From Acidobacteriota bacterium (GTDB taxonomy: Bacteria > Acidobacteriota > Blastocatellia > UBA7656): 64,000 nucleotides of DNA. Below the pieces are notes generated by a model. The model was given only the letters and a program-made list of their open reading frames with translations. It was not told where the DNA came from and made no database searches. Numbering within the stretch: the first letter of the stretch is position 1; each line of letters begins with the position of its first letter. Positions 4,168 through 36,563 of the stretch are shown here, piece by piece. Both the position numbers and the translations under genes were made by a program. The stretch covers positions 109,127-173,126 of the forward strand of contig JBBPIG010000008.1 in NCBI GenBank assembly GCA_038040445.1. The letters run 5' to 3'.

Positions 4168-4938
4168 CTAACGCTGCGCGCGCGAGGGGGTTCGCTGAGT
4201 CAGGTGAGGAAGGAATTTGTTAAGCACCCGGTAGCCTAACAAGACCGCGACTGCCACGCCAAACAAGATTGGCTCTCGAGTATCCGCCTTCACAAGCATG
4301 TAGTAGTGAATCACGCCGCCGGCTGCTGACAGGTAAACAAGCCTGTGCAGCCGGTTCCATCGCTTGCCTCCCAGCCGCTTGATGCTCTTTTGAGTTGAAG
4401 TCAGCGCGAGGGGCACCAGCATCAGGAAGCTCGCCATGCCAACGGTGATGAAAGGGCGTTTGACGATGTCTTCGCCGATCGGCCCGAAGCCAAAAAACTT
4501 ATCGAACCAAACGTAGGTCAGCAGGTGAACGCAGCCGTAGAAGAACGCGTACAGCCCGAGCAGCCGTCGGAACTTGATCATCCATGGAAGGCCGAGCGCT
4601 TTGCGGAGCGGCGTCACCGCAAGCGAGAGTATCAAGAACAACAGCGTCAGAGCGCCGGTCGTGCGAGTTGCGAATTCCGTCGGGTTTGCGCCGAGGCGGT
4701 GGTGATACCAGTCCCACCCGAGCAGCGAGAGCGGCACCGCGCTGCTGATGAAAATCACGAGTTGTGCGAAGCGAGTATCGACGGAGGACGGACGACGGGC
4801 GACCGATGACGGGACGGACGACCGACGACCGATGCCGGACGCAGGAGGGCGGACGACTGACGACGGACGACTGACGACCGACGACGGGGACTCGGGTCGG
4901 TTGTCTTGGTTATCCTCTGGTCGTCGGTCCGCGGTCAT
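4168..4938 (-). CDS. msrQ: MsrQ heme-binding membrane subunit
   Basis: A 256-residue protein. From about residue 55 on it is a six-helix ferric-reductase-like membrane protein of the MsrQ (YedZ) family: the GLYAFFYGCVHLLTYVWFD helix with its conserved His, RLHRLVYLSAAGGVIHYY with two more His, and the usual length after the N-terminus. In E. coli it passes electrons from the quinone pool or flavin reductase to periplasmic MsrP. It lies 20 bp downstream of msrP on the same strand. Residues 2-53 are a low-complexity Arg/Pro/Ser/Val run encoded by a heptamer repeat array, which is not part of the family. No in-frame ATG, GTG or TTG lies between the array and the first helix, so the extension may really be translated or the start may be rebuilt. 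Confidence 0.9.
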   Translation of the reverse strand: MTADRRPEDNQDNRPESPSSVVSRPSSVVRPPASGIGRRSSVPSSVARRPSSVDTRFAQLVIFISSAVPLSLLGWDWYHHRLGANPTEFATRTTGALTLLFLILSLAVTPLRKALGLPWMIKFRRLLGLYAFFYGCVHLLTYVWFDKFFGFGPIGEDIVKRPFITVGMASFLMLVPLALTSTQKSIKRLGGKRWNRLHRLVYLSAAGGVIHYYMLVKADTREPILFGVAVAVLLGYRVLNKFLPHLTQRTPSRAQR

Positions 4939-4957
4939 CGGTCGGTCTTTGGTCGTC
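4780..4957. repeat. Heptamer array with inverted partner arm (GACGACC type)
   Basis: The left arm (about 4780-4890) is a run of degenerate 7-bp units such as GACGACC, GACGACT, GACGACG and GATGCCG. After a ~30-bp spacer the right arm (about 4920-4957) carries the complementary units (GTCGTCGGTC, GGTCATCGGTC). The right arm contains the msrQ start codon, and the left arm is read as msrQ residues 2-53. Confidence 0.8.
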
Positions 4958-4958
4958 T

Positions 4959-5930
4959 TCAGTAGTACTTCTTCAAATCCATCCCGCCGTAAAGCTGCGC
5001 GACCTGGTCACCGTAGCCGTTGAACATCAACGTGTCTCTCAAGCCGAACTCGCCGATGCGACGCTCGGCCTTTTGGCTCCAGCGCGGGTGGTCGCGGTTC
5101 GGATTCACATTCGAGTAGAAGCCGTACTCGCTCGGGCCCGCGATGTTCCAGGCCGTCGGTGGTTCATCTTCGACAAGCCTGATTCTCACGATCGACTTGA
5201 GTCCCTTGAAGCCATACTTCCACGGCACAACCAGTCTGAGCGGCGCGCCGTTTTGAGGCGGCAACGTTTCGCCGTACAGCCCGCTCGCGAGAATCGTCAG
5301 CGGGTGCATTGCTTCATCCAATCGCAGTCCTTCGATGTACGGCCAATCGAGAACGTCCGAGCTGAGGTTTGGCATCTGCTTCGGATCTGCGAGCGATTCA
5401 AAAGCGACGTACTTCGCTTGAGACAGCGGTTGCACTTCATCGAGCAGTTTCGCGAGCGGAAAGCCCACCCAGGGAATCACCATCGACCAGCGTTCGACGC
5501 AGCGATGACGATAGATGCGCTCTTCGGGCGGGCTGATCTTCAACAGATCGTCGATGTCAAAAACGCGCGGTTTGTTGACTAGACCTTCCACGGCCACCGT
5601 CCACGGACGAGTCACGAACCGTTTGGCCTTGCTCGCCACCTCGAGCTTGTCGGTCGAGAACTCGTAGAAGTTGTTGTAGTGGGTTATGTCTTCGTACGAG
5701 GTGTTTTTCTCATTGAGCGGAGGAGCCGTTTGCGGGGGCGCTTGGACATCGGCGATCTTTTCTCCCGCTTGAGTCTCTTCGCCGTGACTGGTGAAGTATC
5801 GATAGACAAGTCCGGTGGCGACTGCGCCGCCGGCAAGAGCTGCGCCGCGGATGAACATCCGGCGTTTTAGGTACAACTCCTTGCCGGTGATCTCGCTGCT
5901 CTTGATGTCGCCGGGTTTCTTGATCAACAT
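4959..5930 (-). CDS. msrP: MsrP periplasmic protein-methionine-sulfoxide reductase
   Basis: A 323-residue molybdoenzyme of the sulfite-oxidase fold. It has a twin-arginine signal ([14 protein letters not shown] at about residues 22-35) for export of the folded, cofactor-loaded protein. The molybdenum-ligating Cys is in RHRCVERW (Cys144), followed by the family pattern [13 protein letters not shown] and [15 protein letters not shown]. It reduces oxidised methionines in envelope proteins and takes electrons from MsrQ, encoded just downstream. Length and domain order are normal. ATG 5930 leaves a ~21-residue leader before the Tat motif, as in many homologues. Confidence 0.95.
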
Positions 5931-7787: not shown

Positions 7788-7912
7788 GTTGGGTTCAGGG
7801 TTCAGGGTTCAGGGTTCAGAGTTCAGAGTTCAGAGTTCAAGCTTTAGCTTGCAGGCCGCGAGTCAGCAACCTGAAGGTTGAACTCTGAACTCTGAACCCC
7901 GAACCCTCAACC
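7788..7912. repeat. Palindromic repeat with heptamer arms (GGGTTCA type), copy 1
   Basis: Seven phased units of GTTCAGG or GTTCAGA lead into a 63-bp core (7828-7890) bounded by GTTCAGAGTTCAA and its exact reverse complement. Complementary heptamers continue on the far side to 7912. The far end overlaps the accA stop codon. The 63-bp core recurs at 8857-8919 with only two differences. Confidence 0.9.
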
Positions 7913-8827: not shown

Positions 8828-8836
8828 TTCAGTCTA

Positions 8837-8937
8837 GTTCAGGTTTAAGCTTTTTAGTTCAGAGTTCAAGCTTTAGCTTGCAGGCTGCGAGGCAGCAACC
8901 TGAAGGTTGAACTCTGAACGTTGAACTCTGAACCCTC
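8837..8937. repeat. Palindromic repeat with heptamer arms, copy 2
   Basis: The core 8857-8919 is 61/63 identical to 7828-7890. It has 13-bp perfect arms (GTTCAGAGTTCAA and reverse complement) and an inner stem CAGG-CTGC/GCAG-CCTG. A second copy of the right arm follows at 8921-8933. It lies just upstream of accA, between divergent accA and icd. Confidence 0.9.
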
Positions 8938-35893: not shown

Positions 35894-36487
35894 TTAGCTT
35901 CGCATACCTTCGCTGTCAAGGATCTGCTTAACTGCGTCCAGCAAGTTCTCGGCTTCAAACTCCGGGTTACATGGCCAGCGGTCGGGATGCGCAAAGGTCT
36001 CGCGACCGTAGCCTGTCATCACCAGCGCCGCGCGCGCCGAAACGTTTTCCGCAAGTTTGATATCGCTGGCCTTGTCTCCGATAACAAAGGAACGCGCGAG
36101 GTCAATGTTGTGCTCGCGCGATGCAGCATCGAGCATACCGGTTCGAGGTTTTCGGCACTCGCAGTCGAGGCGATAACGCGCATTTCCAACTTCGGGATGA
36201 TGAGGACAATAGTAAACCGCATCTATTCGCGCCCCGTCGCCGGCAAGCTCTTCGATCATTCGCGAATGAATCTTGTTCAGGGCTTCTTCCGTGTACAAGC
36301 CGCGCGCGATGCCGGATTGGTTGGTTATGACAATCGTTTTGAGCCTGGACCTATTGATCGCGCGCACGGCTTCAGCGGCCCAGGGGTAGAGAATCAACTG
36401 ATCGGGTGTCGACACGTATCCGGTGTCTTCGTTGAGCGTGCCGTCGCGGTCGAGAAATATAGCGCCTGAGAATTGCGGATCATTCAA
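35894..36487 (-). CDS. gmhB: D-glycero-D-manno-heptose-1,7-bisphosphate 7-phosphatase
   Basis: A HAD phosphatase of the GmhB/HisB-N type (~197 residues). The open frame starts at 36562, but its first ~25 codons lie in a heptamer repeat array (RNPQSAIRNPQ), so TTG 36487 (LNDPQFSGAIFLDRDGTLNEDTGYV) is the more likely start. Motifs are DxDGT in FLDRDGTLNED, VITNQSGIARG, the zinc-binding set CPHH ... CECRKP, and VIGDKASDIKLA. It removes the 7-phosphate in ADP-heptose synthesis for lipopolysaccharide, consistent with a Gram-negative envelope. No other heptose gene is in the window. Confidence 0.88.
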   Translation of the reverse strand: MNDPQFSGAIFLDRDGTLNEDTGYVSTPDQLILYPWAAEAVRAINRSRLKTIVITNQSGIARGLYTEEALNKIHSRMIEELAGDGARIDAVYYCPHHPEVGNARYRLDCECRKPRTGMLDAASREHNIDLARSFVIGDKASDIKLAENVSARAALVMTGYGRETFAHPDRWPCNPEFEAENLLDAVKQILDSEGMRS

Positions 36488-36563
36488 TTGCGGATTGCGG
36501 ATTGCGGATTGCGGATTGCGGGCCACTGGGCGAATCTTAGTTCCGCACCCTGCAATCCGCAAT
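36472..36563. repeat. Heptamer array with inverted partner arm (ATTGCGG type)
   Basis: Five perfect tandem ATTGCGG units (36487-36521), a stray unit at 36472, a ~30-bp spacer and the reverse-complement arm at about 36552-36563. It lies between the toroid-protein gene's stop and gmhB, and it overwrites the region where the gmhB start would be expected. Confidence 0.85.

Follow-up and report, generated by a model that had tools for sequence, protein, structure and literature searches.

Probable overrun of the msrQ start codon by an inverted heptamer array in a member of the Acidobacteriota

In the 64,000-nt stretch of Acidobacteriota DNA (class Blastocatellia) analyzed here (the window), an inverted heptamer array occupies the spacer between msrP and msrQ and extends into the msrQ frame, where it has probably produced a 53-residue N-terminal extension of MsrQ by overrunning the gene's original start codon. 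Taken in full, from growth of the array to a translated tail, this explanation is assigned a probability of roughly 0.78.

The msrP-msrQ locus and the starts of its relatives

Beyond the array, the window's MsrQ, the heme-binding subunit of the MsrPQ system, matches the family model NF003831 over residues 55-245 (profile search, E 2.5e-50; 170.9 bits relative to a cut-off of 130) and shares 60-88% core identity with its family relatives. It carries H138, H198 and H211, which are invariant in 34 MsrQ sequences, lie in the membrane core and are presumably heme ligands. No stop codon or frameshift occurs in the 203 core codons, and the pairwise dN/dS relative to the closest congener (G001, with 88% identity to the window's msrQ) is 0.089 for the whole core and 0.081 for its first 40 codons; the msrQ core is still under purifying selection. 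At 93 of 105 msrQ loci, msrP precedes msrQ in the same orientation, and in the window the two genes likewise adjoin on the minus strand (Table 1).

Read on the msrQ strand, the 5' arm of the array begins directly after the msrP stop, the array as a whole fills 173 nt from that stop to msrQ codon 52, and the 3' arm terminates at codon 54, GAT (4779-4777). Tandem Repeats Finder reports a period-7 array at 4779-4887 with 15.9 copies, 74% matches and a score of 99; the lag-7 score of the spacer is 28.5, and the best of lags 5, 6, 8, 9 and 10 reaches 5. RNA fold prediction gives the spacer a z of -2.7, with equally good folding in 2 of 200 shuffles, and places the msrQ ATG in the stem. By eye, no Shine-Dalgarno-like motif precedes the ATG at 4938, nor does one precede the congener's ATG. 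The original prediction had the msrQ frame beginning within an arm of the array, and its ATG indeed sits in the 5' arm as a variant unit, GATGACC. The accompanying claim that residues 2-53 are a low-complexity translation of the array was right for most of them, which are encoded by heptamers, while residues ~8-18 derive from the unrepeated loop.

The 53 codons of the extension encode 9 Arg and 21 Ser+Pro, for a net charge of +4, and AlphaFold2 predicts no secondary structure for residues 1-50 (block-mean pLDDT 49-63). Codon-usage log-odds per codon are -0.05 in the extension versus 0.30 in the msrQ core; such usage, like that of non-coding DNA, is what recently recruited sequence would show, but untranslated sequence would show it too. 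A gain or loss of 7 or 14 nt in the array ends the msrQ frame early, at 58-148 aa, and a 21-nt loss keeps it open (249 aa). Removing or duplicating a single unit would shift the ATG out of frame. Phase-variable contingency loci combine near-perfect repeats with a frame that is switched by unit number; in msrQ the frame depends on unit number, and the array units are only 74% matched.

Table 1. Coordinates of the msrQ locus in the window and of the other genes judged to include array-coded residues
Feature	Position	Strand	Remarks
msrP	4959..5930	(-)	upstream partner of msrQ; NCBIfam NF003767, E 3.6e-137
msrQ, whole frame	4168-4938	(-)	256 aa
msrQ conserved core, 203 codons + stop	4168..4779	(-)	NCBIfam NF003831, identity, dN/dS
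msrQ array-coded 5' extension, codons 1-53	4780..4938	(-)	translation, composition, absence from 104 relatives
ATG start of the extended msrQ frame	4936..4938	(-)	inside 5' arm, 20 nt past msrP stop
Usual msrQ start place	4783..4785	(-)	TCC in window, ATG in congener
GTG codon 61 of msrQ, rival start	4756..4758	(-)	next ATG/GTG/TTG of frame; inside helix 1
5' arm of inverted heptamer array	~4919..4958	(-)	GACGACC/GACCGAC-type units
Loop between arms, non-heptameric	~4886..4918	(-)	
3' arm of inverted heptamer array	~4780..4885	(-)	GTCGTCC-type units; TRF period 7
prmA	L131:7042-7983 (C21)		codons 2-24 mostly CAATCGG-type array
SCO1-family gene	C1:38580-39554 (L132:18580-19554)		starts GTG1/13/23, then GTG119
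Membrane mannosyltransferase-like gene			starts GTG1/ATG5, then ATG72
Lipoprotein-like gene	C2:366945-367472 (L169:6945-7472)		leader from inverted AAAAGGC-like array
Secreted 447-aa protein	C2:322792-324135 (L167:2792-4135)		leader from inverted AAAAGGC-like array

In a search of the class, 112 of 162 genomes yielded an MsrQ match, in a few cases a weak one resembling other ferric-reductase-like proteins. The window's locus and 108 others were inspected; the N-terminus was covered in 105, and the remaining entries (L017, L054, L252 and L257; 4 of 109) were left out. When the start sites of these genes were compared, with codon 1 defined as the place of the congener's ATG, an ATG, GTG or TTG was found at codons -8 to +4 in 104 of 104 relatives, 66 of them starting exactly at codon 1, and the window alone was without one. 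Specifically, the congener reads ATG AAA GAT ACT CGC TTC and the window TCC GTC GAT ACT CGC TTC, and the exact flanks common to the two are TGAAGA, at the end of msrP, and GATACTCGCTTCGC, within msrQ. In the window's own frame, the candidate starts over codons 1-62 are ATG1, ATC36, GTG61 and ATT62; as predicted, the stretch from codon 1 to the first helix offers no further ATG, GTG or TTG.

The extension is present in none of the 104 relatives with a covered N-terminus, array-free relatives included, which rules out a shared ancestral trait. The original prediction would have fallen if close relatives lacking the array had shown the same extension, and this comparison did not refute it. Since an MKDTRF-like MsrQ start is frequent in other families as well, the window's array-coded start, a state known from one genome, is most simply read as the derived condition. 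A plain gene-caller artefact was suspected first, because most arrays near gene starts precede a usable start; it is ruled out by the lack of any start until codon 61 in msrQ and until codon 64 in PrmA.

The msrP-msrQ spacer is a hotspot of inverted heptamer arrays, and of potential mRNA hairpins, across the class. Among 93 loci, 47 spacers (the window's included) measure at least 60 nt, 31 measure 0-59 nt, and at 15 loci the genes overlap. Of the 47 long spacers, 26 scored 10 or more at lag 7 versus one for five other lags together, and 21 versus none scored 13 or more; folding was at least 3 s.d. better than that of first-order shuffles in 23 of the 47. The units include GTCGTCC (window), TGATGCG (congener), GTCCGTT (G006) and CAGTAGT (G003). 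With arrays present in many spacers and units differing between genomes, it follows that arrays appear, vanish and swap units at this site, and only in the window has one swallowed the start. The suggestion that msrQ gained its extension when the array formed must accordingly be amended: the extension is array-derived, but array formation as such was not the event, because several relatives have spacer arrays (of other units) and no extension; the event was the overrun and loss of the start.

Proposed course of events and rival explanations

Under the preferred explanation, the msrQ-proximal arm would have grown or been rewritten in the window's lineage until ATG AAA was replaced. The upstream frame would have remained readable up to an ATG in the opposite arm, because GTCGTCC and its complement are stop-free in every frame. 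The new ATG would be a mutated unit, GACGACC having become GATGACC 20 bases past the msrP stop, and it may be used through re-initiation after msrP. As judged from sequence, the array-coded extension is probably translated, and MsrQ would thus have gained a disordered, Arg/Ser/Pro-rich tail of 53 residues, presumably cytoplasmic and tolerated before an intact membrane domain.

The rival that survives best, although it is unlikely, is initiation at GTG61, which would leave the array untranslated and trim about nine residues from the usual length of MsrQ. GTG is a permitted start codon, assigned at 5 of 105 msrQ loci (TTG at 7 of 105), and the codon usage of the extension is not gene-like. Such a start, however, would delete residues 54-60, including position 57, occupied by Phe in 64 of the 68 relatives compared, together with the N-terminal nine residues of helix 1; this helix spans residues 52-78 (AlphaFold2, 34 sequences) and so draws on residues upstream of GTG61. 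Codons 54-59 are moreover conserved at the protein level, encoding residues identical to the congener's with two synonymous changes, and codon 60 encodes Leu in the window versus Phe in the congener. The same logic applied to PrmA would have to place initiation at codon 64, within the domain. Because codons 54-60 are conserved and helix 1 is intact, the non-standard initiation that the original prediction had offered as a second option is a weaker choice than the upstream ATG.

It is less probable still that msrQ is an incipient pseudogene, its start destroyed by the array and little or no protein made. The usual start is gone and the predicted RNA structure covers the new ATG, but the 203 core codons are intact with a dN/dS of 0.089, although a loss of very recent date would not yet show. 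Finally, an assembly or consensus error that removed the real ATG from the repetitive hairpin region is hardly credible: such arrays are difficult to assemble and the state comes from a single genome, but the array edges abut exact shared flanks, the msrQ frame is unbroken, and other genes and other genomes have comparable array-coded N-termini.

Heptamer arrays and N-termini elsewhere in the genome and class

A repeat scan covering 1.664 Mb (25% of the genome) identified 166 period-7 segments and 3-11 for each of the periods 5, 6 and 8-11; in first-order Markov controls, period 7 gave ~4 and the other periods 0-28. Although called genes make up 84% of the sequence, 139 of the 166 segments are intergenic. 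Where neighboring segments with related units lie within 150 bp of each other, 42 pairs are inverted and 4 direct. The 53 distinct units among the 166 arrays rule out a single mobile repeat family of the REP/MITE or RPE type, as does, further, the difference in unit between orthologous msrPQ spacers. Period-14/21 repeats deep within genes were set aside, as they resemble the ordinary repeats of coding sequence. A single unit type seems to be regionally clustered, with 16 of 36 genome-wide GTCGTCNGTCGTCNGTC pattern matches falling within 37 kb (C4:77877-114626).

The window contains several additional arrays. A TCACGCA array lies at 2173-2237, with the ATG of an ABC transporter gene (2240) 3 bp beyond its end, and inverted heptamer arrays are found at 7791-7912, between a HAD-like gene and an accA-like gene, and at 8835-8933, immediately upstream of that accA-like gene (the names of these two genes assigned by eye). 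The HAD-hydrolase-like gene at 35894-36562 (GmhB-like by eye) has its likely start at TTG codon 26, the very end of an ATTGCGG array, and is possibly a second start shift within the window.

Within the 1.664 Mb, an array lies near the 5' end of 89 of 1,220 called genes, and in 52 of the 89 it falls in or just before the open frame, the start mostly following within ~10 codons. We judge that at least six genes must include array-coded residues under any common start, barring one within the array or core: msrQ, prmA, the SCO1-family gene, the membrane mannosyltransferase-like gene, the lipoprotein-like gene and the gene for the secreted 447-aa protein. In prmA, the frame runs from the array into the conserved core without an intervening start; the next one after the array, GTG64, is well within the Pfam PrmA match (27-312), and in four PrmA relatives of the family the start falls at codons 16-26, just before the conserved W27. 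The array-coded extensions of msrQ and prmA appear to be real. The secreted protein, for which there is no Pfam match, has the alternative starts TTG31 and TTG42, the latter inside the array. Array leaders are also present in the congener for the mannosyltransferase-like gene, SCO1 and the secreted protein, and the congener's SCO1 leader unit (L201) is unlike that of the window's genome. Two further candidates were dropped: C1:417729-418166 is an over-called ORF with a likely real ATG at codon 74, and C2:246590-247936 has a usable ATG29.

Several of these leaders resemble export signals. The apparent signal peptide of SCO1, NFFLFPFAFCLLSCLPVFAQ, is a translation of TTTTTCC/TTTTGCC heptamers, and the secreted and lipoprotein-like genes have leaders of the FAFCLLPFAF- and LLLLPFAFLLFTSC-type. 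In all three, basic residues come from the 5' arm (AAAAGGC-like: KGKRQKA) and a hydrophobic stretch from the 3' arm (GCCTTTT-like: FAFCLLP), and the leaders are, judged by eye, putative signal peptides. Because complementary codons are opposite in hydropathy, a purine-rich 5' arm would supply the basic n-region and a pyrimidine-rich 3' arm the hydrophobic h-region; the hydropathies of unit and complement correlate at -0.71 over heptamers that are stop-free on both strands and at -0.82 in the 42 genomic inverted pairs. A single hairpin array could therefore serve as a ready-made export signal, e.g., KGKRQKA...FAFCLLP, and arrays that overrun a start would be readable at once because most heptamers are stop-free in all frames (69% of all heptamers, 75% of array orientations).

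SCO1 was examined at 32 loci, drawn mainly from the top scorers among 151 matching genomes and thus neither random nor phylogenetically independent. In the in-frame stretch of up to 120 nt that precedes the core, 15 of the 32 scored 10 or more at lag 7, and 2 of 32 did so at other lags. In the window's own genome, the same score was reached at 22 of 1,220 gene starts and in 1 of 1,025 gene interiors. Repeated array-coded SCO1 leaders across the class are a strong lead that still falls short of an established result, because the relatives are non-independent and the sample is one of best matches. It is tempting to suggest, at slightly less than even odds, that inverted heptamer arrays may be a recurrent source of N-termini in the class, particularly of signal peptides, with the msrQ tail as a cytoplasmic variant.

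Significance and comparison with known systems

The passage from non-coding sequence to protein is usually studied through whole new genes. The msrQ locus would offer a visible route in which an intergenic repeat hairpin overgrows a start and becomes an N-terminus, the earlier state being kept in the congener. If the signal-peptide part is true, it would provide a simple mechanical origin for export signals together with a large natural data set. For annotation, gene callers will often over-extend genes into arrays in such genomes.

A literature search on heptamer repeats in Acidobacteria found no paper. Among the titles listed for heptanucleotides at start codons, N-terminal extensions and signal peptides, none describes the loss or replacement of a start codon by a heptamer array or array-coded signal peptides. 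Rickettsia palindromic elements are a defined repeat family inserted in frame in genes, where they add new protein sequence; the arrays described here are likewise palindromic repeats that become protein, but their unit is locus-specific and the start codon is replaced. In the P6b stem of the cyanobacterial tRNA-Leu intron, growth occurs by heptanucleotides, and the repeat classes differ between lineages; the paired heptamer arms are similar, but that stem belongs to a non-coding RNA, whereas the present arrays are read as protein.

Heptamer arrays, their intergenic bias, their inverted pairs and their occasional reading at protein ends are already in print (consulted parts of PMC4679880 and PMC4692102), as is repeat growth that makes disordered protein regions (consulted part of PMC9879509). 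The TAACTGA arrays of marine Beggiatoaceae, as described in part of MacGregor 2015 (PMC4679880), are mostly intergenic and often lie just upstream of starts, with a few read within ORFs, mostly at protein ends, and they resemble the present arrays in these respects. They differ in having one dominant unit, as opposed to 53 units in 166 arrays, and in being nearly all direct with a single inverted case, as opposed to 42 inverted and 4 direct pairs; the consulted part of that account has no displaced start codon or signal peptide (PMC4679880). The GGGAATC repeats of Xanthomonas and Nostoc, in the part of the source consulted, likewise lie between genes and often form close inverted pairs, 70 and 75 of them in two Xanthomonas genomes, and so share both traits with the arrays described here, but they consist of one G-quadruplex-type unit, unlike the many units here (PMC4692102). 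Finally, the tandem repeats of Borgs, as portrayed in part of the source, create disordered protein regions with units that vary between loci, and the likeness lies in growth that adds disordered protein sequence from locus-specific units; Borg in-ORF repeats, however, are direct and all have unit lengths divisible by three, whereas the unit here is 7 and the arrays are read through all frames, lengthening the gene upstream (PMC9879509).
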